Assembly: GCA_024226555.1 (NCBI GenBank)
Contig: JAAELO010000582.1
Span: forward strand, 1 to 44,120
Length of the DNA stretch: 44,120 nt
Reading direction: 5' to 3'
DNA from: Desulfobacterales bacterium
GTDB taxonomy: Bacteria > Desulfobacterota > Desulfobacteria > Desulfobacterales > JAAELO01
Part shown: positions 2,787 through 25,700 of the stretch, piece after piece
Position numbering within the stretch: the first letter of the stretch is position 1
Layout of the letters: the number at the start of each line of letters is the position of its first letter
The notes under the pieces: generated by a model
Seen by the model: only the letters and a program-made list of their open reading frames with translations
Databases searched by the model: none
Told to the model about the DNA's origin: nothing
Position numbers and translations under genes: made by a program

Positions 2787-4214
2787 TTACAAAGGACCAA
2801 AACTTAATAGCATTATGATAGATCTTTTTGCATATTCAACAAAGATTTGAGGAAATACACCTGGCAGGATAATCCCTATTATAAAGAATACAGATAAAAG
2901 TCTGATTGGAAATTGTATTTGTAAGGTTGAACCTTTACTATCCCTCATATATACATTTCGAATTAGTTTTGCGGCATAAATAAAAGATATTACTGAAGAG
3001 AATATATAAACTGCTATAATTCCATAGAACTCCTTTTGGATGGCTGCGTATAAAATCAGAAACTTACCTATAAATCCTGATGTGAAAGGCATTCCTACAA
3101 TTCCTGCTATGCTGACAGAAAAGGTGAATCCCATTAGATTAGATCGTTTATTAAGACCTTTTAAATCGATAATTTTGAGAGCTTCATCCTTTTCAAGAAA
3201 TTTAATTATATATAACAGAGACATAACTATTAATGAAAAGCAGGATACTGAGTATACGCTCGCAATTAGCCCAGTCTCATTGTTGCAAACAACTGAAAGC
3301 AGTAGAAACCCACAATTATTTATTGTTGAAAAAGCTACGAAATTCCTGATTTTATCCTGCGAAATTGTTTTAAAAACACTTAAAACTATGGAAACAACAG
3401 ATATCGTAATTAAAAACCAGGTTAGCTTACTGCTAACATTTCCTGTAATGTTCACTATTTTTATTAAAGCAGCGGTGCTTCCAATTACAAGTACTGTAAT
3501 TATAAATGATGAAGTTATTCCGTTACTTTTTTCTGTAATATCTTCAACGCTGAAGTGAAAAGGAAATACAACAATTTTGAATAGTACTGTGCTTAAAATA
3601 AGAATGAAAGAAACAACAATAAGGGTTGAATCTCCGATCATCATTGGAATTACATTTTTTTTAGCAAGCTCTTTTATCATAATTTTACCGGTAGCTCCCC
3701 ATAATAGGGAAACTCCATAAAGAGCAAGTCCTGATACTACAACACTTATTAAAATATATTTTATACCGGCTTTTGTTGCATCTCCATTACTACCTTTGAA
3801 AAACAGAATTACATATAATGAAAGCGTAGTAACTTCAAGGGACATAAGCATTGTAAAAATATCACCGGAGCTTGCTACAAGATAAAGACCGAAGCTTGCT
3901 ATTGTTAAATTTTGAAAATATTCAAATGGTAATTTCTCTTTTTTTCCAACACTGGTGGACATGTAAACAATTAAAAAATAACCTGCTGCAATCATTACCT
4001 TAAATGTTTGGGAAAAATTGTCGACAACGTATATTTTGTTTAAATATTCACCCGTTTGATCATATGAATAAAGAGCTATGAAAACATTGATAGCTGCAGC
4101 AACCTGAATAATACCATAGATCAACTCGTTATCTTTATTACCTGAAGCTATTATATATATTAGAAAAAACATTAAAATTAATACAATTTCGGGAAGTAGT
4201 GGCTGAATATTCAT
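2787..4214 (-). CDS. nuoN: NuoN-like antiporter subunit of complex I-like enzyme
   Basis: A 475-residue polytopic membrane protein with about 14 hydrophobic segments, of the NuoN/MrpD proton-antiporter family. Of the antiporter-like subunits in this cluster it is the most canonical. Glu127 in LMSLEVTTLSLY matches the essential TM5 glutamate, Lys213 in LFKIVVFPFH matches the TM7 lysine, and Lys384 in GFIGKFLIL matches the TM12 lysine. The usual PDVYEGAP motif after TM7 is degraded, and the lysine normally found in TM8 (PKAA) is not seen. It is the last gene of the cluster, starting 10 nt after nuoM ends. No clear terminator follows; the next 742 bp are gene-free. It probably still moves protons or Na+, unlike some of its partners. 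Confidence 0.85.
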   Translation of the reverse strand: MNIQPLLPEIVLILMFFLIYIIASGNKDNELIYGIIQVAAAINVFIALYSYDQTGEYLNKIYVVDNFSQTFKVMIAAGYFLIVYMSTSVGKKEKLPFEYFQNLTIASFGLYLVASSGDIFTMLMSLEVTTLSLYVILFFKGSNGDATKAGIKYILISVVVSGLALYGVSLLWGATGKIMIKELAKKNVIPMMIGDSTLIVVSFILILSTVLFKIVVFPFHFSVEDITEKSNGITSSFIITVLVIGSTAALIKIVNITGNVSSKLTWFLITISVVSIVLSVFKTISQDKIRNFVAFSTINNCGFLLLSVVCNNETGLIASVYSVSCFSLIVMSLLYIIKFLEKDEALKIIDLKGLNKRSNLMGFTFSVSIAGIVGMPFTSGFIGKFLILYAAIQKEFYGIIAVYIFSSVISFIYAAKLIRNVYMRDSKGSTLQIQFPIRLLSVFFIIGIILPGVFPQIFVEYAKRSIIMLLSFGPL

Positions 4215-4223
4215 ATATTTACT

Positions 4224-5684
4224 CTAAAACATCTTTAAAATTGTTGAAATTTCCGGGTTCATCATATCTATAAATATTTTGGGAAATAATCCATTAATAA
4301 TTATAACGAAAACAAGTATTAACAGTATGATAATCTCGTCTGGTTTAATATCACTTTTCTTTTCTCTTATGAGGTTTAATACATTAATATCAGAGTCACC
4401 CCATATCATTATTCTAGTATAGTTTATTACGTATATAGCTGCTATGATTAACCCAATTATCATTAAAGCACCTAAAAACAGATTTTTCTTAAATCCACCT
4501 GAAATAATTAAAAACTCGGAAATAAAAGTTCCGGTAGCTGGAAACCCTATTAAAGCAAGTGAGAAAAAAATAATAAAAATAGATAATTTGGGCATTTCAA
4601 AGCTGATTACCCTGTTATCATCTAATTTTGCACTATTTGATCTTCTAAACATAAAACCATAGCATATAAAAATACCAGGAATTATAAATCCCATATTAAT
4701 AATATGCATTATACTTCCGGTCACTCCGTCATTGTTAATAAAAAGGGCTCCCACAAATGAAATTGCGGCATGACTTATCATAATGTATGAGAAAAGTTCA
4801 TTGATATATTTTCTTGTAAAAGCAAGTATTGAGCAATAAAAAAAAGATATTAGTGCAAAGGATATAAAAATATACAGAATATAATCATTTACACAAAAAG
4901 GAATACAAAATTTTATAAAGTTATATATACCTATTTTAAAAATTATAGCTGATATTATAATGTTTGTTGAAACATAGTCTGAGTCTGTTTTATGAACTGA
5001 AATTATATGTATTGGAAATATTGAAAACAGAAGTACAACAGACAAATTCATTAGTAAAAAAATCCAGATTTTAGCTTCTTTTGCTATATCTTTAACAATA
5101 TTTACATCGGGATGATAAAAAGATCCTGTATTTGCATAAATCAGAATAGATGATGATAAAAATAGAAGACTGCTTATTAACAGGACCGTTAGAATTATTT
5201 TGCTTCTTAGATTATCCTCAAAAAAAGATACAGAAAGATATAATGATATAATTATTATATTTATGAAAAAAAACATCAGTACTGTGTTTAAACTCGCAAA
5301 ATAACCAATAGCACCGGCTCCTGTGGTTAAAATCAGTATTGATTTCTGTTTAATGTTGTCACTTCTAAATTCATAAAGGAGTAATATAAAAATGATAATT
5401 GATATGGAACCAATAAACACAACTGAGATTCCTGTTAATCCCATAGAGTAATCAAGATTTAGAAAAACAAGCCAATGGCTCAATTCTGTAAATTGTGGTT
5501 TAATTATTGTTATATCAAATTTTATAAGAATATAAAAACATACAAAAATATTAATAATTGAAGAAGTTATTGATATCAATTTTATTGAGTTTTTTCTTTT
5601 TAGACAGCCTATAATAAATATTGATATTAAAGGGTTATATATCAAAAATGGAATTATGTGGTGGCTGATTTCAGATATTTCCAT
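4224..5684 (-). CDS. nuoM: NuoM-like antiporter subunit, divergent
   Basis: A 486-residue polytopic membrane protein of the NuoM family. By hand alignment the TM5 glutamate (FFEAM in typical NuoM) is Asn142 and the TM7 lysine (KxPxFPFH) is Leu219, with FPIH retained at 223-226. The TM8 lysine survives as Lys250 (IFKIGIY) and the TM12 glutamate as Glu390 (GTFISEFLI). So the cytoplasmic-side input pair appears lost while the distal residues remain. Its ATG overlaps the preceding stop codon by one base (TAATG), implying translational coupling. It belongs to the membrane arm of the complex I-like enzyme. Assignment as NuoM rather than another antiporter-type subunit rests on gene order (before nuoN), length and the TM8 and TM12 motifs. 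Confidence 0.8.
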   Translation of the reverse strand: MEISEISHHIIPFLIYNPLISIFIIGCLKRKNSIKLISITSSIINIFVCFYILIKFDITIIKPQFTELSHWLVFLNLDYSMGLTGISVVFIGSISIIIFILLLYEFRSDNIKQKSILILTTGAGAIGYFASLNTVLMFFFINIIIISLYLSVSFFEDNLRSKIILTVLLISSLLFLSSSILIYANTGSFYHPDVNIVKDIAKEAKIWIFLLMNLSVVLLFSIFPIHIISVHKTDSDYVSTNIIISAIIFKIGIYNFIKFCIPFCVNDYILYIFISFALISFFYCSILAFTRKYINELFSYIMISHAAISFVGALFINNDGVTGSIMHIINMGFIIPGIFICYGFMFRRSNSAKLDDNRVISFEMPKLSIFIIFFSLALIGFPATGTFISEFLIISGGFKKNLFLGALMIIGLIIAAIYVINYTRIMIWGDSDINVLNLIREKKSDIKPDEIIILLILVFVIIINGLFPKIFIDMMNPEISTILKMF

Positions 5685-7378
5685 TATAAAATCACCACTA
5701 TAAAAATTAAGAAAGCAATAATCAATATCATTAAGCCGGAATAATATCTGGTTTTAAGACTGTTAATATTATTTAATTCTTTTGAATAAGATTTTATAAG
5801 ACTATTCATATCCTTAAATTTTTCAGTTATCTGTTTTTCAAATATATCAAAATACCTGAAAATTTTCATATCAAATTTTAATTGAGTATTCAGTGCAGAA
5901 TCGAAAGTTTTTTCAGATTTTGTATATGCTGGTTTTACCATTTGATTATTAACATATTTAACAAGATCAATAATTTTCTCTATAGTATAGAAACTACCTT
6001 TTTCAGCCTTGATTATTGTTTTTAAAAAATTAAAAACAATCAGTGAAACTACAAAAACCTGAAAATAATCAGAAAATATTTCATATTTAATATCCTGCTG
6101 CTCAAAAAGTGTAAATTTAAGAACAATATAGAATGCTAATAATAGAAATATACCATAATTAATCTTTTCTTTTTCCCCAACAATTTCATTTTCTTTTAAA
6201 AAGTAGTAAATAATTCTAATTACTGCAATAAATAACAAAGAAAGATATATATATACGAACCCTTTATACCAGAAACTAAAATATTTAAAATTTAGCCTTG
6301 TAACAACCGTTTGAATACTATTGAAATATGATAATACGGGCATACCACTTATAATAACTAAACAGACAACCAGAAAACAAAGATGATATGGCATTATCTG
6401 ATATAATCCCTTACAATCGTCTAAATTTGTAATTTTCCTCTTTTTTATAATATCTGATATGACAAATATCATCATAACTGAACTTATCAGTGAAGCTATA
6501 ATAAAATCATTAACAACATAGATTTCATTAAAAAGGCCTGTAACAGATAAAATAGCAGCAATTTGAGATACAAATAAAAGATTAACTATATATCTTATAT
6601 CATTGTGAATTATAGCAAAAAGTAGTGTATAAATAGCTGTAGAATAACCTGCATAGATCAGAATATCTGAACCAGAGAACTTCTGAATTATTATATATAA
6701 AGTGACAATTGAAACTGTGGTCACATACATAATATAAATATTGTATTCGACCTTAGATATTAAACTTTGGAAAAGAAAGTGTAGCGGAATCACAGATGCT
6801 TTTAAAAGAAGAGGAATAATAATAAAATATTTAATATTATCATTTATTATAAAATTTATTTCTCCTGTGAAATATGAAACGCCTGCTACTAAAAACATGT
6901 CAATAATTAAAGATATTATTAAAAAGGTACTATATTTATTAAAATTCCCATTAATTTTAATTATTGTAAAAAATGGAATGTAACAGATAAAGAAATAAAA
7001 AAAGAAACACTGAATCAAGTTAACTGTTGATATTGAGGCAATAGCTGCAGCTATCATCAGAAAAAACAGCGAGTGCAGCCTATTGTCACTTTTTAAATTT
7101 AAAACAGAAAGAGAAAAACTAATTATCAATATGAGTTTATGGAACAGATCGGTTAGTGTGAAATATCTATTACTATAATCCATTAAACTGAAATCAAAAT
7201 AAAACAGAAAAAAACTGGCTGTTAAAGGCGTTATAATTATTACTATCTTTTTAAAAATCTCATTTTTTATTATTCCAATGAATAAAGATGCTAATAGATA
7301 TGTTAAAACTGCATACATATACTGATTTTTTAAAATTGAGATATTTTTTAGATAATCAAATGTAAAAAAATGTTCCAT
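5684..7378 (-). CDS. MrpD/NuoL-like extra antiporter subunit with cytoplasmic tail
   Basis: A 564-residue membrane protein of the NuoL/MrpD superfamily and an additional antiporter-like subunit beyond NuoL, M and N. Lys193 in LLLKASVIPLH matches the TM7 lysine. The TM5 glutamate is not visible (CFFFYFFICYIPF), and the TM12 segment (GMPVLSYFNSIQTV) has neither Lys nor Glu. After about 13 membrane segments, residues 465-545 form a charged, probably cytoplasmic helical region, followed by a final membrane helix that ends the protein. This recalls the extended C-termini of MrpD-type subunits in Mrp-linked respiratory complexes. The ATG at 7378 overlaps the upstream stop (TGATG); the codon before it, TTG at 7381, is a less likely start. 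It may form an extra ion channel or a structural piston arm. Confidence 0.75.
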   Translation of the reverse strand: MEHFFTFDYLKNISILKNQYMYAVLTYLLASLFIGIIKNEIFKKIVIIITPLTASFFLFYFDFSLMDYSNRYFTLTDLFHKLILIISFSLSVLNLKSDNRLHSLFFLMIAAAIASISTVNLIQCFFFYFFICYIPFFTIIKINGNFNKYSTFLIISLIIDMFLVAGVSYFTGEINFIINDNIKYFIIIPLLLKASVIPLHFLFQSLISKVEYNIYIMYVTTVSIVTLYIIIQKFSGSDILIYAGYSTAIYTLLFAIIHNDIRYIVNLLFVSQIAAILSVTGLFNEIYVVNDFIIASLISSVMMIFVISDIIKKRKITNLDDCKGLYQIMPYHLCFLVVCLVIISGMPVLSYFNSIQTVVTRLNFKYFSFWYKGFVYIYLSLLFIAVIRIIYYFLKENEIVGEKEKINYGIFLLLAFYIVLKFTLFEQQDIKYEIFSDYFQVFVVSLIVFNFLKTIIKAEKGSFYTIEKIIDLVKYVNNQMVKPAYTKSEKTFDSALNTQLKFDMKIFRYFDIFEKQITEKFKDMNSLIKSYSKELNNINSLKTRYYSGLMILIIAFLIFIVVIL

Positions 7379-7605
7379 CAAGCTTCCTTTTTAAAAAAAA
7401 TTACTGAAACTATCTTAAATAGTAGTACTAATAAAAAAGAAGCTGTAAATATAATAGATCCCCAAAAAAATTTGATCTTAAAACCTGTTATATTTTCAGG
7501 CCTTACTACAAAAAAATCTAAACTAATTACTATGATTATTAAAATAATAACCAAATAACTAAGGTATTTTTTATTATTTTTTATGTATTTGATTAAGTCA
7601 CTCAT
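7378..7605 (-). CDS. Small two-helix membrane protein between antiporter genes
   Basis: A 75-residue protein with two predicted membrane helices (about 14-33 and 46-69), a short loop with an ArgProGlu motif (VVRPEN), and Lys-rich ends. It overlaps the nuoL stop by the 4-nt ATGA and the next gene by TGATG, so it is clearly made with the cluster. Small two-helix proteins of about 75 residues, with a -D-(L/F)-(L/V)-V-P/R- turn, accompany MrpD-type genes in some anaerobic bacteria. The resemblance is from memory and not proven. It is probably an accessory membrane-arm subunit. I do not know a named family for it. Confidence 0.65.
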   Translation of the reverse strand: MSDLIKYIKNNKKYLSYLVIILIIIVISLDFFVVRPENITGFKIKFFWGSIIFTASFLLVLLFKIVSVIFFKKEA

Positions 7606-9020
7606 GGAATCACCACTTTTTCAACAATTTCAATTATAAATCTGTGGAAGCCAACAGATGCAAACGTTATCAATACTGAAACATAAGCTACAGATATTAA
7701 ACCTTTACTTTTATGTTCATTATCTGTCTTTACTTTTAAAGAGTTATTCGCATACACCTGAATTATAGAAATTGTACTGAAAAGCATAGCAAGCATAATA
7801 AAAAGGGTAACTACAATTTGATCATTTTCAAATGTCGCCTTTAAAAGGTATGATTTTGCAAGAAAACCTGAAAAAAGCGGAACACCGGCAAAACATAAAC
7901 CATTTATTATAAATGCTGACATATAATAACTGCCTGAATTTCTCCCAAGTTTTTCTCTTAAATCAAGTAATATAAATATAGATATGGATGATAGAACAAA
8001 AATAAATAACTGAAGAATACTTCCAATTACTGCATTTTCACTGAAAATAGTTATACCTGTCAAAATACAGGCAAATTGGCTTAGAAAAAGATATGAAAAC
8101 TTTTTTATCAGATCGTCTTTGTAAAAAGATAAAACAGATGAAAATAGAAGTGAAATCAAAACAATTGTTATCGTAATTTTATCAATACCTGATTTTACGA
8201 TAATCTCATAACCTAAAACAGAGAAGAATATCCTGATTATAGAGAAAACACTGGTTACAGGTATTATTATAAAAAGTATGATATTTACTGTAATACTTTT
8301 TGATATTGTTCTGGTTAACCAATTGTTCATAGGAAGTATGGAAGCATTAGCAACACCTATAAAACTTAGTACATATATTGCAATATAGAGAAAATCACTG
8401 CCTTTATCAAGAATACCATATTGTATGTTATTCATTCTGAAATCTAAATTATTACAATTGATATAAACCAGTATTATTGCTGGTAGAAAAAAGCCTTTAA
8501 AAAACAATATTAAAAAACCAACATATCTTTTTGAGTTTTTTAAACCTTTTTCACTATTGTAAAATGCGGATAATGGCCATGAGGTTATAGATATAATACC
8601 AAAGAAAAAATAGAGTGTTAACAGACTACCAGAAAGAATTACCCCAATAACTCCAAACTCAATCAATAAAAAGCAGAATAAAAAACCACCTTTACTACTA
8701 ACTTTTTCAAATTTAGTAGTAGTAAGATGATACGTTATTACGATTAGAAACGAGAGCGATATAATAAATGATATTAATATACCGAACCAATCCACCTTTA
8801 ATTTAAGGGCAATTCCTTTATAAAAGGTTATTATATTATATGTTAAAACTTCACTTTTAAAACCTGCACTTGCGATTAAAAATAAAGATATAAAGGTCAA
8901 AAATACTGTAATAAAAGTTAAAATATCTTTTGCTTTATTATCATCTTTTTTAAAAGCTACACATATAGCTCCAATTAAAGGAATAAGAACGGGAAATAAT
9001 ATTTTATATGAAATAATCAT
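7602..9020 (-). CDS. nuoL: NuoL-like antiporter subunit, divergent
   Basis: A 472-residue polytopic protein in the NuoL position, shorter than typical NuoL (about 610) because it lacks the long lateral helix. The start is the ATG at 9020, four bases after the nuoK stop and preceded by GGAT; the longer frame to 9083 would overlap nuoK by 59 nt. By hand alignment the TM5 glutamate (FWExMS) is Gly141 (FFGIIS), the TM7 lysine is Asn225 (NASILPMNNWL) and the TM8 His/Lys is absent. KDDLIKKFSY (301-310) and the TM12 Lys389 (SGFLAKSYLL) are kept. The fold is clear from these conserved stretches, but proton entry by the usual route looks impossible. It could instead be an MrpD-type subunit. Confidence 0.78.
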   Translation of the reverse strand: MIISYKILFPVLIPLIGAICVAFKKDDNKAKDILTFITVFLTFISLFLIASAGFKSEVLTYNIITFYKGIALKLKVDWFGILISFIISLSFLIVITYHLTTTKFEKVSSKGGFLFCFLLIEFGVIGVILSGSLLTLYFFFGIISITSWPLSAFYNSEKGLKNSKRYVGFLILFFKGFFLPAIILVYINCNNLDFRMNNIQYGILDKGSDFLYIAIYVLSFIGVANASILPMNNWLTRTISKSITVNIILFIIIPVTSVFSIIRIFFSVLGYEIIVKSGIDKITITIVLISLLFSSVLSFYKDDLIKKFSYLFLSQFACILTGITIFSENAVIGSILQLFIFVLSSISIFILLDLREKLGRNSGSYYMSAFIINGLCFAGVPLFSGFLAKSYLLKATFENDQIVVTLFIMLAMLFSTISIIQVYANNSLKVKTDNEHKSKGLISVAYVSVLITFASVGFHRFIIEIVEKVVIP

Positions 9021-9024
9021 TAAG

Positions 9025-9318
9025 TTATAAATCCGTATCGATATTTCTATTATCCCGATAGTAAGCCAATATAAAAGATGCAATTACAATCATCGAGGAG
9101 ATACTAAAGATAACAATGACAAAAGAGAAAAGATTTCCATCCCCTTTATCCTTAAATATAAAGTGGTTAAATACAGAAAAATTCAGAGCGGCCGCCAGAA
9201 ATATAATTTTGGCTGATAGCAGCATACCAAACAATGAACTTTGTCTGATAACTCCGTAAATACCACATGAAACCATAAAAATGGATAAAACAAGGTATAT
9301 ATGGATCTGGTTATACAA
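9025..9318 (-). CDS. nuoK: NuoK-like subunit lacking both membrane glutamates
   Basis: A 97-residue protein with three membrane helices, the standard NuoK length. YLVLSIFMVSCGIYGVI (8-24) and the LNFSVF region match NuoK well. The two membrane glutamates that are nearly invariant in NuoK are replaced: the MSIE position is Lys37 (LLSAKIIF), and the AAAE position aligns with Ser75. The gene begins with TTG, directly after the nuoJ stop with no gap; GAGGCGA lies about 8 nt upstream and the N-terminus aligns with other NuoK proteins from that point. In canonical complex I these glutamates are part of the central proton path, so their loss is notable. Confidence 0.82.
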   Translation of the reverse strand: MYNQIHIYLVLSIFMVSCGIYGVIRQSSLFGMLLSAKIIFLAAALNFSVFNHFIFKDKGDGNLFSFVIVIFSISSMIVIASFILAYYRDNRNIDTDL

Positions 9319-9804
9319 TTATTCGCCTCGCTTTCTTAAAACAATTACAGATCCTGTAACAGCAATCAATATTGATAGGGCGATTAATTCTAAAAGTAAA
9401 AAATATTTTTCAGTTAACAACTCACCAAATAACTTATAACTGTTCATTTGGTTAATTATTATAAAATCATTTTTTAACAGAATCATAGTCATTACTAAAA
9501 AAAGAATAGTTGCCGATAAAAATCCACAAATTTTTGCAAATCGCTCTTTTGTTTTAATGACTATAACTTGAAAACCACATGCGAATATTCCAAAAGAGAT
9601 TATAAGTACAACAGAAATAGTATGAATAAGAAGTAGAATCAATGCGATAATACCAGCATTAATATAGAACATTATGCCTGTAATTCCTGAAATTACGGCT
9701 ATATATCCAATGCTCATATGGATATGGTTTTTAGAATTTACTACAACAATAGATCCAGCTACTGAAAATAACATATATATAATTATTATAAGGTCATTAT
9801 TCAT
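9319..9804 (-). CDS. nuoJ: NuoJ-like membrane subunit
   Basis: A 161-residue protein with five predicted membrane helices, the normal size and topology of NuoJ. The third helix (NAGIIALILLLIHTISVVLII) occupies the place of the conserved NuoJ helix that usually reads like a-x-x-q-x-LVYVGAI-x-V-LF, but the Tyr-Val-Gly-Ala core is not kept. That core is where the pi-bulge of the coupling mechanism lies in canonical complex I. Identity therefore rests on position between nuoI and nuoK, length and topology more than on motifs. Its ATG overlaps the nuoI stop codon (ATGA). It would sit beside NuoK and NuoH at the base of the membrane arm. Confidence 0.7.
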   Translation of the reverse strand: MNNDLIIIIYMLFSVAGSIVVVNSKNHIHMSIGYIAVISGITGIMFYINAGIIALILLLIHTISVVLIISFGIFACGFQVIVIKTKERFAKICGFLSATILFLVMTMILLKNDFIIINQMNSYKLFGELLTEKYFLLLELIALSILIAVTGSVIVLRKRGE

Positions 9805-10241
9805 AAGGGTTTAGTCCTGAATATTTTTAGGATATCAACAGTTAGTTTATTTTCAAGTAGTTCTGAAGTTTCATATCCACCAGTAAATTCAATAGCATTT
9901 TCATTGCAAATATCTATACATAAGCCGCAATTTGTACAACAAGATATATTATGTTCAAAACTTAAGAGAATAATCTTGCTATGAACTGTCGGAAATTTTT
10001 CAATTTTTATTGCACTGTTTGGACATAATTTTTGACATTCAAGGCAAACAACGCATTGGTGTTTATTTCTATCTTCATTAGGTTTTAGTTTTAAAAAACC
10101 ATACATATCACCATAGTTCTTAACTAAACTCTTTGGATATTGATATGTTTCTACTGTTAAACCAAGATTCCATAATGAATAACTGATATTTTCAAAAAAA
10201 GCCCCTGAGACTTCATATAAATTTTTTATAAAATTTATCAT
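9801..10241 (-). CDS. nuoI: NuoI-like 2x[4Fe-4S] ferredoxin subunit
   Basis: A 146-residue protein of the NuoI/TYKY family. Two CxxCxxCxxxC motifs are complete: Cys63/66/69/73 and Cys102/105/108/112. They would bind clusters N6a and N6b and pass electrons toward NuoB. The proline that normally follows the last cysteine is present in the first motif (CP) but is Asn in the second, and an additional Cys101 sits beside the second motif. Residues 1-45 form an amphipathic membrane-associating arm. It overlaps nuoH and nuoJ by 4 nt each (ATGA). No nuoE, nuoF or nuoG is present in the window, so the electron donor is unknown; a ferredoxin docking here directly, as in other 11-subunit forms, is an inference. 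Confidence 0.9.
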   Translation of the reverse strand: MINFIKNLYEVSGAFFENISYSLWNLGLTVETYQYPKSLVKNYGDMYGFLKLKPNEDRNKHQCVVCLECQKLCPNSAIKIEKFPTVHSKIILLSFEHNISCCTNCGLCIDICNENAIEFTGGYETSELLENKLTVDILKIFRTKPL

Positions 10242-11164
10242 ATCAATAAGAACGTAATTGTGTAATTTAAAATAGAAAGTGGTACTAAAAATTTAAACAA
10301 AAAACCAAATAAATTGTTGAAATTTACAACTGGAATTGAGTTTTTAAATAGTATCATTAAAAACAATAATATATATGTTTTAAAAATGAATATAACTTCT
10401 GCCGGAATAGTAATCATTTTGATAGTGAACTGATGTGCACCGCCAAAATATATAAAAACAATTATAGAGCTGATAACAAATTTCGAAAGGCTTCTCGAAA
10501 GGTCAGAAAAATAAGTTTTAGACCCCTGACTTTCATGTATGCCCTTTAAACCTGGTATATGAATCCTTAAATTTCCAGTTATTACAAGCAAACTTATAAA
10601 ACAAATTATAAAACCAATTGGTTGCTTTAAAATATACCATTGGTGATACTGACTATCTAAAATCACCTTTAAATTGAAGGTCTGTGAGAACTTATAAATA
10701 GCTAAAACAGAGATAATTACTGGTACATAGTATAAAACCTTAATTACAACTTTCATTAAATATGAGTAGGCAATATCTTTTCGGTTTGTAGCCAAGGAAT
10801 TAAGTGTTAGAATTATTTTATCAAATAATAATATTATTAAAATAGCATTTAGATTGATATCAATGCTTAAAAGCCCCATTCTAACCAAATAGAGCTGAAT
10901 TATATTCAGAAGCAAAAGTGTTGATGGAAAAATTAAATAAAGGGGTGTTGAATATAAATGAATAAATTTCTTATCTTTACCAAAATCACGTAGAAATTTA
11001 AAACCTATGTTTCTAAGAAAAATAAATTCATTAATAATACCAAAACGTCTCTCAATTCTTGCAAAAACCTTCAGTTCAAAATATTTAAGAACAAACAAAT
11101 TACCAAATATAAAAATTATGGTTAAAAAAAACATAGATAGATAATATTTTGGATCATATATCAT
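10238..11164 (-). CDS. nuoH: NuoH-like subunit with altered quinone/E-channel residues
   Basis: A 308-residue membrane protein with about eight helices, typical of NuoH. It aligns through YYVP (145-148, the SYEVP position), QPIGF (181-185) and the following loop. Acidic residues that form the quinone-linked E-channel are missing: SYE becomes Tyr146, the glutamate of AETNR becomes Ile195, the aspartate of FDLPE becomes His202, and the following EAE becomes LeuLysGly. The GPNRVGPxGLLQP motif is reduced to FGIINEFIFLRN. Loop polarity and helix count are otherwise normal, and the gene is intact, overlapping its neighbours by ATGA on both sides. It anchors the hydrophilic arm; whether any quinone can enter is doubtful. 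Confidence 0.8.
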   Translation of the reverse strand: MIYDPKYYLSMFFLTIIFIFGNLFVLKYFELKVFARIERRFGIINEFIFLRNIGFKFLRDFGKDKKFIHLYSTPLYLIFPSTLLLLNIIQLYLVRMGLLSIDINLNAILIILLFDKIILTLNSLATNRKDIAYSYLMKVVIKVLYYVPVIISVLAIYKFSQTFNLKVILDSQYHQWYILKQPIGFIICFISLLVITGNLRIHIPGLKGIHESQGSKTYFSDLSRSLSKFVISSIIVFIYFGGAHQFTIKMITIPAEVIFIFKTYILLFLMILFKNSIPVVNFNNLFGFLFKFLVPLSILNYTITFLLI

Positions 11165-12600
11165 TTATCTACCTCTGCCATTGAAAAGCCTAAACTGAAT
11201 AGGTAAAGAGGAAGGTCGCTTAATTTAATGCCTTTTAATTTTTTAAGATAACAAAAACCTGCTATGGAAGGGGTCTCAATTTTAATTTCATATGGAATAA
11301 CACTGTCATTACCTTTTAAATAATAACCCATTCTTCCCCTTGGTGATTCAACAGCAAAATTATAATCTCCATATGGAATTTCAAATGTATTTGTTTCTTC
11401 ATAATATTGACCTGCTTTAATTTTGCTTAAAGCTTTCTCAATAATTCTATAGCTAACAAATATCTCATCAATTTTGAGATTAAATCTACTATATTCGTCT
11501 CCCTTAAGATCTATTGATTGATTATAGTCAAAAAGTCCATATAATCCATAATTGTCCTGTTTTCTTATATCCAGATTCACCCCGGTACTTCTTAACAAAT
11601 GACCAGTCATTCCTGATTTTATAGCATTTTTCTTTGATATAACACAAAAATTCTGTAATTTAGTTTTTATAAAACCATTATCTCTCAACTCATCTAAATC
11701 TTTTAACAGATTTTCAGTTACAGATTTAAAAATAGTATCTAAACCACTTTTAATATCATGCGAAACTCCACCAACTCTATAGTATTCAGTTAATTTTTTT
11801 CCAGCAACAAATTCAATAAGGTCGCTGATTTTTTCACGCATCATTTTAAAAAAAGAACATAAAGCATATAATCCAAGTCCATTTAAAAGCTCAGAAATGT
11901 AATTCAGATTGAAATAAATTCTACTAATTTCGGCTAAAATGATTCTTAAGTATTCGGCTCTTTCAGGTACTCTAACATCCAGTGCTTTTTCAATAACACC
12001 AACAAAACAGTAATTTGAAAAAAAACCAGAATAACTGTCCAGGCGTGAAGATTTTACTATAAATGATTTCCAGTTCGTCGATTTTGCGGAATTCTCTAAA
12101 AATCGTGAGTTATAACCTATATCAGGTATTATGTCTTTTATATATTGGCCACATGTAAGCACATTGAAATAGAAAGGATCTGAACTAAGCAAGTCAAAAT
12201 TATCTGAACTTATAATAAATTCATCTTCTTCTTGTATTAAGAAGTCTTTTATTTCTTCAAATATCAATCCAAATTGTTCATTTACTTCATTTTCATAGAA
12301 TTCAGCATTTGAAAAAACATCGTTAATTGATGGTATTATTATATCTTCAAATAAAACTTCCACTTTAATTTTATGCTTCTTTACAACGCTACTAAAAAAA
12401 TATATTATCTTAAAATTTTCATTATGAATTCCAGTTATAAAGTTTAAACTAAAATCTTTTTGTCTTATTATTTCTGAAAATTCTTTAATTTTAGTATAGT
12501 GAACTTCAAGCATATAATCAAAACCTACTGATGCAAAATTCATTTTCTGAATTTTTGAAACATATTCGAGATCAATTAATTTCTCAAGTTGACTTTTCAT
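11161..12600 (-). CDS. nuoCD: NuoC-NuoD fusion subunit, quinone-site residues replaced
   Basis: A 479-residue fusion of a NuoC-type domain (about 1-125, with AEFYENEVNEQFGL at 99-112 matching ExEVxDxFG) and a NuoD-type domain (about 130-479). NuoD identity is firm from VPERAEYLRIILAEISRI (211-228), YYRVGGVSHDI (273-283) and ESPRGRMGYYL near the C-terminus. The N-terminal GPQHPxxHG loop aligns with residues 133-141 and has no histidine, and the TYLQ tyrosine that hydrogen-bonds quinone aligns with Trp177. The LHRG histidine is Ser165. The CxxC pairs that bind nickel in [NiFe] hydrogenases are also absent, so it is not a hydrogenase large subunit. It overlaps nuoB and nuoH by ATGA. The electron acceptor is therefore unclear. 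Confidence 0.88.
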   Translation of the reverse strand: MKSQLEKLIDLEYVSKIQKMNFASVGFDYMLEVHYTKIKEFSEIIRQKDFSLNFITGIHNENFKIIYFFSSVVKKHKIKVEVLFEDIIIPSINDVFSNAEFYENEVNEQFGLIFEEIKDFLIQEEDEFIISSDNFDLLSSDPFYFNVLTCGQYIKDIIPDIGYNSRFLENSAKSTNWKSFIVKSSRLDSYSGFFSNYCFVGVIEKALDVRVPERAEYLRIILAEISRIYFNLNYISELLNGLGLYALCSFFKMMREKISDLIEFVAGKKLTEYYRVGGVSHDIKSGLDTIFKSVTENLLKDLDELRDNGFIKTKLQNFCVISKKNAIKSGMTGHLLRSTGVNLDIRKQDNYGLYGLFDYNQSIDLKGDEYSRFNLKIDEIFVSYRIIEKALSKIKAGQYYEETNTFEIPYGDYNFAVESPRGRMGYYLKGNDSVIPYEIKIETPSIAGFCYLKKLKGIKLSDLPLYLFSLGFSMAEVDK

Positions 12601-13034
12601 GAGCGCTTAATCAGTTCCTTCAATTTAAGAACTCCGTTTAAAATACCTTCAGGTCTCGGTGGGCAACCAGGAACGTAAATATCTACAGGTATTATCTTAT
12701 TTAACCCTTTTACAATGTCCTCAGAAGTATTATATATTCCACCTGAACATGCACAGTTTCCAACTGCAATAACTCTTTTCGGAGTATTTGCTTTTTCATA
12801 CATATCGGTGATTTTTTCAGCAAATTTGTAATTTATATAGCCACAAATTATGAATAGATCGCAATCTTCCAAACTATCGATTAACCTTATTCCTGTTCTC
12901 TCAATATCATAACGAGCTGTTTTCACAGAATCAAATACAGGTAAGCAGCACCCTGAACCTTTGAAAATTGTATTAATATATTCAGATCTACCGTAATTTA
13001 AAACTCTTTCAAATATTTTTGTTTTAAAAACCAT
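12597..13034 (-). CDS. nuoB: NuoB-like [4Fe-4S] (N2) subunit
   Basis: A 145-residue protein of the NuoB/PSST family. With the start at 13034 the four N2 ligands are present: tandem Cys29-Cys30 (GSGCCLPVF), Cys94 (VGNCACSGG) and Cys124 (VPGCPPRPE). The tandem cysteines are the complex I type, unlike the CxxC seen in [NiFe] hydrogenase small subunits. ATG at 13034 overlaps the nuoA stop (TGATG); a TTG one codon earlier is less likely. The N2 cluster normally hands electrons to quinone at the NuoB-NuoD interface; here NuoD lacks the usual quinone ligands although this half is well kept. The gene overlaps nuoCD by 4 nt. Confidence 0.92.
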   Translation of the reverse strand: MVFKTKIFERVLNYGRSEYINTIFKGSGCCLPVFDSVKTARYDIERTGIRLIDSLEDCDLFIICGYINYKFAEKITDMYEKANTPKRVIAVGNCACSGGIYNTSEDIVKGLNKIIPVDIYVPGCPPRPEGILNGVLKLKELIKRS

Positions 13035-13351
13035 CAATCCCTGCTTTTTAGAACATGAAAGAACGATATGAATATGGTTAACCCAAATAAACCAATAGAA
13101 ATCAATTGTGTGTTTTTTATGCTTTCAATATTTAACATTACACTAACAAATACCGCTATCGATGAAACTAATCCTATCGCTACAAACCCATAAATAACAT
13201 AACTATAATTAAGTATATAATTTTTGTAATTATAACTTTTTTCAGCAACTCCTTTATCACTCTTAACAAGAAACCTTATTAAATAAATGATTAAAACAGA
13301 TGCAATATAAATTATAGTTACGGCAAAGATTTCATAAGAGATTTTAATCAT
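13034..13351 (-). CDS. nuoA: NuoA-position membrane protein, highly divergent
   Basis: A 105-residue protein with three predicted membrane helices (about 7-28, 45-70, 80-98), the length and topology of NuoA, located right before nuoB as in most nuo operons. It does not show the usual NuoA signatures: no YECG in the first loop and no FDVE-x-x-x-x-PWA in the second helix. The first loop is Lys/Tyr/Asn-rich. I chose the ATG at 13351 because it overlaps the upstream stop codon by 8 nt (ATGATTAA) and gives a NuoA-like N-terminus; an upstream start at 13375 would add eight residues. The assignment is by position and topology and could be wrong at the sequence-family level. Confidence 0.6.
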   Translation of the reverse strand: MIKISYEIFAVTIIYIASVLIIYLIRFLVKSDKGVAEKSYNYKNYILNYSYVIYGFVAIGLVSSIAVFVSVMLNIESIKNTQLISIGLFGLTIFISFFHVLKSRD

Positions 13352-13802
13352 TTTCAGTCCCAAAAATTTTACCAAGAAGATCTGTTAGAACCGGGTTTTT
13401 TTGTTCTATTTCAAAAACTCTTTCCAGATTATAAATATTTTCTAAAGTTGGAGCATCTATTATGATTTCGGAATTTCTGCTTATCATCTCAAATATATAT
13501 GAAAGAGAAAGACAACTTAAGTTATCGTAAAGTTCACTTTCATCTCTTTTTCCCCCATCAACTTTTGGATCATAACTGTTCTTGTATTGATATATTTCTG
13601 AATCTGCAGCAAATAAAATCATAGAGTTAATATCACTGAATTTTTCACTTTCAATTTCTTCATCATCATCAGTCATATTGAGCACTTTTATGAAATAGAC
13701 AGCTCCATAATATAATCTTTCTAACCATTCATCACTCAGATTTTGTGGTAATACCTCTGTTGCTCCTTTTGATAGTATCTCTTCAGCAAATTTATTTATC
13801 AT
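13344..13802 (-). CDS. Unknown soluble protein leading the complex I-like cluster
   Basis: A 152-residue acidic, soluble protein with no membrane helix or signal peptide and only one cysteine (Cys97), so no metal cluster. Residues 44-57 are very acidic (DDDEEIESE). I do not recognise a family. The ATG at 13802 is preceded by AGGGCA, 15 nt after rsmE ends, and its stop overlaps the next start, so it is translated with the cluster. It stands where nothing is expected in canonical nuo operons. It might be an assembly factor, a peripheral subunit or a soluble donor-docking protein; nothing in the sequence decides among these. Confidence 0.7.
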   Translation of the reverse strand: MINKFAEEILSKGATEVLPQNLSDEWLERLYYGAVYFIKVLNMTDDDEEIESEKFSDINSMILFAADSEIYQYKNSYDPKVDGGKRDESELYDNLSCLSLSYIFEMISRNSEIIIDAPTLENIYNLERVFEIEQKNPVLTDLLGKIFGTEND

Positions 13803-22760: not shown

Positions 22761-25700
22761 CTATAGTTCATTGATATTTATTAATTTTCCATTATAGTAT
22801 TTCTCAAATTCTTCTATGGATTTTATTAATGATTCAAAATAGTCTTCACAATTTTTTAAGCTGCTTTCTGTTAATTCACCACTATCAATGTCAATGATAT
22901 TTGATAGTTCCTCTATCTTTAAATTTAGTTCACTCTCTGATTTATTTCCAGAAATTTTCTTAATAGTATTTATAACATTGTTAATAGTTTTAAGATCATT
23001 TTCCTGTAATAAAACATTTAGATAATTCATTTCATTTTTATACTGCTTCTTAAAATTTATCAAAATATCATAATATTTTTTTTCATTTACATTAATTGAT
23101 TTTTCAAAATCTATTTTATTCATATTAACTCTAAATTCAGCTGTAAAACTGAACACGGAACCTGATTTTCTATTTTCGACTGATATATCACCACCCATAA
23201 GTTCAACTATTTCTTTACTTATTGCTAAACCAAGTCCTGTTCCTCCATATTTTTTTGTAACAGATCTTTCTTCCTGAATAAATGGATTAAATATTTTATC
23301 AATAGAAGATTCCTTTATACCAATTCCTGTATCTGATACATCAAATTTTAATACTAAATAATCCTCTTTTTTTTCATTTAAACTAACTGATATCTTTATA
23401 TCACCTTTTTCTGTAAATTTAACTGCATTAGACATTAAATTACCGAGTATTTGTTCTAATCTAAAAGAATCTCCATATACTATTTCAGGTATATTTTTAT
23501 CTACAATTGCTGAAATAATAAGATTTTTCTTTTCTGCTTTTATCTTATATTTAGTTAACATTGTTTCAATTACACTATGTATATTTAACGGTTTTGCAGC
23601 TAATATAGTATTGCCTGATTCAATAGTTGAAAATTCTGAAATTTCGTACAATAGTTCCAGTAAATATTTTGCAGAAACCCGGATATTTTTTAAATAATTA
23701 ATTGTTTTTTCGGAATAATCGTTATCCAGTGCAAGCTCGGTCATACCTAATATTGACTTCATTGGAGTACTTATTTGATGACTAATACTTGCAAGAAATT
23801 CACTTTTATAAGTATTTGCCTTATCTACAGTATTTTTAGCTGATTTTACATCTTTCAAACTTTCCTGCAATTCAATATTTTTGATCGATAACTCTTTAGT
23901 ACGTTCAGCTACTTTTTTCTCAAGAGTACTATTTAAATCTTTCAATTTACTATAAATATATGCATTTTCAATTGATATTGCAGCCTGTGAGGACAATATT
24001 TTAAGCATTTCAACTCTATCTTCAGAAAATGCTCCTTTTACTCTATTATTCTCAAGATACAATACACCTGAAAAACGTGAATTGTATAGAATTGGTATAC
24101 AAATTAAAGATTTTGGTTTTTTTTCACTAATATAGTTATCATAAATGAATGTTCCATCCACAGAAGCATCATCCAAAACAAGATTTTCTCTTGTTCTTAT
24201 AACATAATTAATAACAGCGGCAGATATTTTGTCACAATTTTCAAATCTCATTCCATTTATTATATCGTTATCATCATCAATGTGAGCTGTTATAACAAAT
24301 TTGCCCTTATCCTTTAAAATTAAAAATCCTCTATGGGCCCCTGCATTTTCAATAACTATCGACATTAGCTTATCTATCAGTTTATCAAAAACTATCTCTT
24401 CTGATAGTGTTTGAGTTGCCTTCATCACAGCTACCATGTCTATTGTAATTGAATAATCAGATATAGTCTGATTCTTTATTGCTGAACTAATACTATAATC
24501 TACACTTTCAGTTCCTATTAAACCTGGATATTCTGACTGTAAAATTCTTGTTTTTCTCGAAGCACCCCATTTTGAATAGGCAAAAAAAGCATCATTTATG
24601 TGTAACTTACCGAGATTCATCCTTTTTTGACTTATATAAAACTTTGCTGCCAGTTCATTAGAAATTGCCTCATTTTGTAAGAAATTATTTTTTATCGCAC
24701 TTTCAATAGATTTTTCATAACATTTTTCAGCTTTTTTTATATTACCTGTAATTCGAAATAGCTCAGCTTCTATCAACAAGTATTTGTGAAGATTGTTTTC
24801 TTCACAATTTTTCGTCCAGAGTTTAAGTTTTTTCTGATTTTTTCTTACCCTGCTAATAAAGTTTCGCTTCTCTTTTTTAGTAACTTTATCGTAAAGAGCA
24901 ATTAAATAGAGTGAATTGTAAAAATTGTGCTCAACTATCTGCAATAATCCAAATGTTTCATTTCTAATTTTTTCAGCTTTTTTTATTACTTTATAACCTT
25001 CGTCTATATGTCCCAGTATAAAACATACTTTTATTTTCAATAGATAGTAATAAGATATTACAATTTTGTTTTTTGTTGCCAAATAGCCTTCATGGTCATA
25101 AGTATCATCTTTAAATATTATATTGTTTAAGTCAGGATTAACTAAATTTTCAACAAACTGAATATTGAGATGCATGTTTATATCATTTGAATCCTTAATT
25201 CTTTTTAAAAAATCATTGTAATTTTCACATTGACTTCTAATGTTTTCAAGCATGTCACCTTTTAATACCCTTCCAAACATAATCCAACTTGTTATAAAAC
25301 CAGCAAAAACAAAATCTCCACATTCGAGAGCTAAATTAAAAGCTTTTTGAAGATAATTGTTATTTTCATCAATATGTCTGTTCCAATGTGAAATAAAAGC
25401 TCCAAAAGTACCATACATTCGGCATCTAATCGAAATATCATTATACCTTTTATCAAGTTCAAGAGCTATTGTCGCAAGCTCATATCCATCTTTATACCTT
25501 CCTGAGAAAACCTGAATTAAACTTCCATAAGTTGCATATGCATAGGGTGAAAATTGTGAATTTCCAGAAATTAATGAACTTTTTATAATCTTCAGAATAA
25601 GATGTACCATCAGTTTTTTATTTACAAAATAAGATGAAATGACCATTTTTTGGAAAAAAAGCATTTTTTTCTCAAGTATAGGATCATTAATTTCCTTTTT

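Follow-up and report, generated by a model that had tools for sequence, protein, structure and literature searches.

A fast-diverged complex I operon in a Desulfobacterales bacterium that keeps its Fe–S ligands and has altered quinone-site and proton-transfer residues

Gene content and organization of the operon

The contig JAAELO010000582.1 of a Desulfobacterales bacterium, whose full length of 44,120 bases is referred to here as the window, belongs to a 7.69-Mb genome that is 97.95% complete in 904 contigs. A complex I operon of 12 open reading frames (ORFs) lies on the minus strand of the window at 2787–13375, in the order A-B-CD(fused)-H-I-J-K-L1-S-L2-M-N (Table 1); it retains the cysteines of its Fe–S clusters while many residues of the quinone site and the proton pathways that are fixed or nearly fixed in relatives are replaced. 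The genes are joined by 4-nt overlaps at seven junctions and by a 1-nt overlap at one, as in translationally coupled operons. An earlier note on this DNA, made from the sequence alone, had the coordinates, the open frames, and the stop/start overlaps right. Its gene set needs amending, as it overlooked the 75-aa membrane ORF between the two NuoL-like genes, and as the 152-aa ORF at the upstream end is not a recognised complex I subunit: this ORF has no family match in Pfam or NCBIfam and no convincing homologue among 105 reference loci (best E 0.14).

Several of the subunits are hard to recognise. The NuoA-like protein is 12–21% identical to its counterparts in 21 relatives and is without a match in Pfam or NCBIfam profile searches, and for L2, the Pfam profile search gave no match. 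The small ORF S, both in the window and in the reference cluster L036 (11891–12139 there), matches nothing in NCBIfam and nothing in Pfam above the cut-off. The true start of L1 probably lies downstream of the 59-nt overlap with nuoK; the coordinates given are those of the ORF as listed.

Table 1. Features of the complex I operon and the adjoining ORF. TM, transmembrane helix; residue numbers follow E. coli
Feature	Coordinates	Strand	Length (aa)	Matches and characteristics
NuoA-like	13034..13375	-	113	conserved acid of TM2 lost; placed by conserved gene order
NuoB	12597..13037	-	146	N2 cysteines 4/4; PF01058 5.7e-25; NCBIfam NuoB 3.5e-42
NuoC-NuoD fusion	11161..12600	-	479	PF00346, PF00329; quinone-site His, Asp, Tyr replaced; no CxxC
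NuoH-like	10238..11164	-	308	PF00146 4.7e-21; acidic loop and E-channel residues lost
NuoI	9801..10241	-	146	8/8 cysteines, two 4Fe-4S clusters; Fer4 matches; TIGR01971 2.7e-16
NuoJ-like	9319..9804	-	161	PF00499 1.5e-9; Y59 to H
NuoK-like	9025..9318	-	97	PF00420 3.1e-10; E36 to K, E72 to S
L1, MrpD-like fourth antiporter subunit	7602..9083	-		PF00361 8.2e-15; best NCBIfam PRK08375.1-1
S, small membrane ORF between L1 and L2	7378..7605	-	75	position conserved in relatives
L2, NuoL-like	5684..7381	-	565	best NCBIfam PRK12668.1; mean identity 18%
NuoM	4224..5684	-	486	PF00361 9.4e-25; 4/7 checked residues kept
NuoN	2787..4214	-	475	PF00361 2.6e-37; 7/9 checked residues kept
152-aa ORF	13344..13802	-	152	overlaps nuoA by 32 nt; membership in the complex not recognised

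Relationship to known NuoEFG-less complex I clusters

The surroundings of strong NuoD matches from the same order and phylum were fetched as 25 clusters, and 22 of these have the order A-B-C-D-H-I-J-K-L1-S-L2-M-N, with C and D as separate genes; L087, L093, and L094, which have other gene sets, were excluded. A homologue of S stands between L1 and L2 in all 22 reference clusters used, from which two rows were dropped (L1 of L097, which is split, and the 50-aa NuoA of L098). A NuoD alignment scan of a second genome set yielded 80 loci at 26–35% identity to the window; L1, S, and L2 occur together in 55 of these named loci, which span Desulfuromonadales, Desulfobulbaceae, and Verrucomicrobiota among others, and all thirteen genes are found in 44. 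With E. coli queries, no NuoE, NuoF, or NuoG was found in the fetched stretches beside 21 of the 22 reference clusters or beside any of the 55 L1-S-L2 loci. In the window, likewise, a comparison with E. coli NuoE, NuoF, and the N-terminal 555 aa of NuoG gave no ORF match at E 1e-5, the search of this genome covering the window only. Hence, the earlier statement that NuoEFG are missing holds beside the operon and is uninformative, and we rejected this absence as a signal of novelty.

The best profiles of L1 and L2 are the same as those of L036, although the scores of the window proteins (193 and 37 bits) are far below the cut-offs (663 and 564). Missing NuoEFG and an extra antiporter subunit are traits of the cluster type. 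Clusters of Desulfoluna limicola, Desulfobotulus alkaliphilus, and other Desulfobacterota and Verrucomicrobiota share with the window the gene order, the lack of NuoEFG in the stretch, the Fe–S cysteines, and (L036) the L1 and L2 profiles. The window differs from them in its fused C and D, in a mean identity of 16–39% per subunit compared with 42–72% among the relatives, and in the replacement of coupling and quinone residues. Since gene order, L1 and S, and the absence of NuoEFG are common to the relatives, the architecture is known, and it is the sequence that is abnormal.

The reference clusters show some variation of their own. L088 (G576) has a NuoF-like ORF in the fetched stretch. L094 (G506:C99:36600-55600), an L1-S-L2 cluster with D, H, I, J, K, M, and N, is a variant with a different electron-input end: the 3.2 kb retrieved ahead of D yielded no A, B, or C, and large ferredoxin-like proteins (630, 259, and 403 aa) and NuoE-, NuoF-, and NuoG-like ORFs lie at its ends. 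In L097 and L183 (Desulfobacteraceae bacterium Eth-SRB2), L1 is in two ORFs (256 + 118 aa in L097), reflecting a frameshift or a sequencing error, and in L167, a further partial L1-S-L2 set precedes the full cluster. ORF S, being conserved across L1-S-L2 clusters, is possibly an unrecognised small subunit.

Residues kept and replaced

Residues were compared by alignment in the numbering of E. coli MG1655, using 61–65 relatives per subunit for all subunits except L1, S, and C. Matches with less than 70% coverage and identical proteins were removed, and near-identical duplicates may persist between the unnamed and the named sets. All 12 Fe–S cysteines are kept (four of four in NuoB and eight of eight in NuoI, for clusters N2, N6a, and N6b), as the earlier note had stated. 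It was equally right that the quinone residues of NuoD are replaced: H220, H224, Y273, and D325, each present in 65/65 relatives, have become D, S, S, and G. A review names His228-Asp329 as the quinone-protonating pair (PMC10212512), which we took as NuoD H224 and D325 in the 596-aa numbering. NuoCD contains five cysteines, none of them arranged as CxxC, in agreement with the reported lack of this hydrogenase motif.

In NuoH, ten positions that are fixed in 65/65 relatives each (D63, N139, R148, E157, R209, D213, E216, E218, E220, and E241) have all lost their residue. The earlier claim of altered residues in NuoH stands for these ten; E36 is kept, and E228 depends on the alignment (Y in one, E211 of the window in another). 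NuoK E36 (64/64) is replaced by K and E72 (63 E and one D of 64) by S. The NuoA position E81, D or E in 61/61 relatives, is S, and D79, present in only 40/61, is V; NuoJ Y59 (62/64) is H. These replacements, too, had been described correctly, and they are backed by stretches almost devoid of charge: charged residues are absent between K51 and E84 of the window NuoA and between D60 and R88 of NuoK, K37 is the sole one between R25 and H52 of NuoK, and H61 is the sole one between H29 and K84 of NuoJ. Because of these stretches, an alignment shift was rejected as the source of the losses in NuoA, NuoJ, and NuoK. Judged from the alignments, much of the predicted E-channel (the acids of NuoH, NuoA, and NuoK) and the His/Asp/Tyr site of NuoD are absent from the window complex.

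The antiporter subunits are affected unequally. L2 lacks all five residues checked (E144, H334, K342, and K399, 65/65 each, and H338, 63/65) and has, in TM7, a Lys at the position of E. coli K229, where 64/65 relatives have Asn. NuoM has lost E144, K234, and H348 and has kept H241, K265, H322, and E407 (62/62 each in relatives). In NuoN, E104, E133, K158, K217, H224, D229, and K395 are kept, and K247 and H305 are lost. The earlier description of NuoL and NuoM as replaced thus applies to L2 and to three of the seven NuoM residues; it assumed one L-like subunit where there are two, and left out NuoN, which is mostly intact.

Divergence of the operon and constraint on its two arms

Invariant residues have been lost in every subunit. 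In all 13 subunit trees, the window tip measures 1.6–3.7 substitutions per site (longest for L2, 3.74), compared with averages of 0.12–0.41 and a maximum of 1.56 (NuoC) for the other tips, and the mean window–reference distance is 1.8–7.0 times the mean distance between references in all 13 alignments. Of the 22 reference genomes, 20 were searched for UvrC, which is encoded on the same contig as the operon; 19 entered the comparison (G056 was fragmented), and the subunit trees are based on those 19 or fewer. The UvrC tip of the window is 0.60 (others: mean 0.34, maximum 0.80), and the distance ratio is 0.90. Fourteen genomes of the same order have a full-length UvrC match, with identities of 48–54%. 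Genome-wide fast evolution is therefore unsupported by the one housekeeping gene tested. Such divergence would fit a relic under relaxed selection, in which all subunits of a redundant complex drift without catalysis.

Relatives suited to a dN/dS comparison were not found: the best identity is 35% in overlapping sets of 58, 395, and 291 genomes (own genome in each), the latter two scanned with E limits of 1e-50 and 1e-40. A single-protein search of genome contigs gave no close relative, and no other genome of the source's family is among the relatives listed.

Constraint was assessed on columns invariant in the reference clusters, which were called universal if the residue also occurs in E. 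coli and local if not. The peripheral arm comprised B, C, D, and I, and the membrane arm A, H, J, K, L2, M, and N (L1 and S are without E. coli counterparts). In the peripheral arm, the window keeps 100/167 universal residues (60%) and 19/67 local ones (28%; p 1.3e-5), in contrast to the membrane arm, where 114/348 (33%) and 95/318 (30%) are kept (p 0.45). Seven control complexes, of which six lack the L1-S-L2 set (L157 lacks NuoC, L186 lacks NuoN, and for the split NuoM of L093, the larger piece was used), keep 75–93% of universal membrane-arm columns with a universal preference in 7/7 (p ≤ 5.8e-5); for the peripheral arm, 6/7 show this preference, the exception being L199 (p 0.78). Local membrane-arm retention in the window (30%) is within the control range (27–83%, four of seven at 27–33%), so that the losses are not easily put down to poor alignment. 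Within the peripheral arm, universal retention is 14/17 for NuoI, 31/47 for NuoB, 8/13 for NuoC, and 47/90 for NuoD; in the membrane arm, it is 8/16 for NuoK, 27/57 for NuoN, 37/115 for NuoM, 19/63 for NuoH, 4/14 for NuoJ, 18/68 for L2, and 1/15 for NuoA. The apparent trace of function is strongest along the predicted Fe–S wire.

Open frames and predicted structures

The roughly 3,500 codons of the 12 genes contain no stop, and the ORFs cover the whole stretch over which their relatives align. In a crude neutral simulation, which began with the window genes and allowed no changes other than substitutions (72% AT, 10 runs for each gene), ~196 stops were expected at an equal amino acid divergence. 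Hydropathy profiles track those of the relatives in seven membrane subunits (r 0.66–0.93). Single chains of NuoCD and NuoH were modeled with AlphaFold2, with input alignments that contain canonical relatives and hence favor a canonical fold. For NuoCD, the predicted local distance difference test score (pLDDT) is 90 or more at 238/479 residues, in the D domain, whereas the C domain, which had no alignment rows, is poor. The NuoH model has a mean pLDDT of 75.1, with residues 207–216, in the region of the acidic loop, below 50. Both models have complex I chains as their best PDB matches (NuoH/ND1 in the case of NuoH). Intact frames, hydropathy, and these models would speak for selection on the frames; codon-position composition did not separate the hypotheses.

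Phylogeny

In a concatenated tree of eight subunits, the window and the 22 clusters are set apart from six other complexes with an ultrafast bootstrap (UFBoot) support of 100, and the 22 clusters without the window are supported at 93, the window being their sister on a branch of 3.17. A ten-subunit tree of 46 L1-S-L2 clusters and the window, without an outgroup, places the window between subgroups (Shimodaira–Hasegawa-like support 0.945) with a tip of 2.83; the longest other tip is 0.51. Based on the concatenated tree, the window groups with ordinary complex I, which is one of the two signs, the other being a high dN/dS, that the earlier note had set together against its own proposal of a new type of energy-converting oxidoreductase. 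Gene order, the extra antiporter, the small ORF, and the profiles shared with L036 likewise mark a widespread complex I cluster and give that proposal, as stated, no support. A new donor or acceptor is possible; nothing in this analysis shows one.

Six genomes of the same order (L029–L034) encode weak NuoD homologues of 458–592 aa, without a CGIC or DPCxxC hydrogenase motif; five of the six have no CxxC, and L031 has one near its start. The five included in the NuoD tree (without L030) stand beside an Ech protein and apart from complex I, and they presumably resemble Ehr-type complexes.

Genome context and related systems

DsrA/DsrB-type genes are adjacent to each other in the genome, with a [NiFe] hydrogenase pair nearby (read by eye). 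There are also an Ech-type group 4 cluster (PF00346 match; cluster read by eye), three RnfD/NqrB-family genes, two MqnA/MqnD-family genes for the futalosine route to menaquinone, and UbiA-family prenyltransferases. Judging by its gene content, the host probably reduces sulfate, uses menaquinone, and has further entry points for energy conversion. As menaquinone genes are present, loss of menaquinone is unsupported as the cause of the change in the quinone site. A second canonical complex I that could serve as a backup, for which the earlier note had suggested looking, was not found, PF00346 occurring in this 97.95% complete genome only at the window locus and the Ech-type locus. The Rnf/Nqr-type and Ech-type entry points could make coupling by complex I dispensable. 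Elsewhere in the window, an 1872-aa ORF at 22761–28379 reads, by eye, as a fusion of a serine/threonine kinase, an ATPase, a GAF domain, and a histidine kinase.

The subunits B, D, H, and I and the antiporter subunits are homologous to those of group 4 [NiFe] hydrogenases (Ech/Mbh) and Ehr-type complexes. The window differs from these hydrogenases in that its D lacks CxxC and its B, D, H, and I score best on complex I profiles. The 11-subunit complex of Desulfitobacterium resembles the window in lacking an NADH module, and ferredoxin has been proposed as its donor (PMC11238625). This complex, which is reported to be conditionally essential, differs, in a comparison by description, in that the window has lost coupling residues and has the extra L1 and S.

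Discussion

The explanation that we favor, at somewhat under an even chance, is that the window encodes a maintained, decoupled, and fast-diverged derivative of a complex I type, lacking NuoEFG, that is widespread among Desulfobacterota. NuoB, NuoCD, and NuoI would take electrons from a soluble low-potential donor, probably ferredoxin, and pass them via N6a and N6b to N2. As the pair that protonates quinone, the E-channel, and a large part of the charged axis are missing, electron flow, if any, would probably be uncoupled from the standard quinone-driven pump. For a complex still able to assemble in this form, the loss may have been tolerated because the cell has Rnf/Nqr-type complexes and an Ech-type hydrogenase. 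We count for decoupling under maintenance that every Fe–S cysteine is kept while fixed coupling residues are replaced; the absence of stops where many were simulated, the preference in the peripheral arm, and the hydropathy match count for maintenance. A stronger version, in which a "wire without the pump" was selected, the redox arm and the membrane scaffold being kept and coupling discarded, possibly with a non-quinone acceptor or another use, appears doubtful on these sequences.

Several observations weigh against this explanation. The peripheral arm has lost 40% of its universal invariants, and the controls lose 6–13%, so that electron transfer is not assured, and a relic is conceivable. 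NuoN and half of NuoM look intact, which makes partial pumping conceivable, and no donor gene was recognised in the operon. The hydropathy match is poorest for NuoH (r 0.66, compared with 0.92 for E. coli). Finally, NuoD alone favors a place for the window outside the L1-S-L2 clusters, between complex I and the hydrogenases.

In the approximately unbiased (AU) test on NuoD, a grouping of the window with seven 13-gene references, L088 being left free, was not rejected (p 0.080), nor was a wider grouping to which L088, L199, and L157 were added (p 0.185). Grouping with eight references including L088 gave p 0.0024, and these eight without the window were themselves rejected (p 0.047); in the free tree, the NuoD of L088 pairs with that of L199, from outside the L1-S-L2 group (UFBoot 79). 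The NuoD placement could thus reflect long-branch attraction, which is likely, or an older origin, and acquisition from an unsampled divergent lineage, with the acceleration having taken place elsewhere, is possible.

The main rival is the relic, which we regard as unlikely though still to be reckoned with; stops would be absent so far or because of a residual structural role. The excess distance to relatives in every alignment, not seen for UvrC, the loss of invariants in every subunit, and the possibly redundant systems in the genome agree with it, whereas the zero stops, the intact overlapping junctions, the complete cysteine set, and the preferential retention in the peripheral arm do not. 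A rewired pump, with redox chemistry still driving proton or sodium movement via NuoN, part of NuoM, and substitutes such as the TM2 Lys of NuoK and the TM7 Lys of L2, is improbable. The residues kept in NuoN and NuoM and the Lys of L2 in place of the usual Asn would suit such a pump, but with the E-channel residues and the proton pair of NuoD lost, no link from redox chemistry to the antiporters is apparent, and the membrane arm shows no preferential retention of universal residues. Least probable is the oxidoreductase envisaged in the earlier note, in which an acceptor other than quinone would receive electrons from N2 in a reshaped cavity of NuoD and NuoB: the intact wire, the replaced quinone pair and Tyr, the confidently predicted D-domain fold, and a change that quinone loss does not explain are compatible with it, but no acceptor module or hydrogenase CxxC was recognised, and from one sequence alone no conserved new motif is discernible.

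The titles returned by literature searches included none on a complex I with these losses, and we make no claim of absence from print. The striking sequence pattern is real, and what is new about it amounts to a variation within a known type of complex I. How quinone chemistry drives the distant antiporters of complex I is still debated (PMC10212512). If our explanation is true, the window complex would be a natural separation-of-function experiment, in which coupling residues have been lost while the frames and Fe–S ligands are intact. It would then reveal which residues a complex can do without and still assemble and carry electrons, and whether a membrane arm that does not pump has any use.

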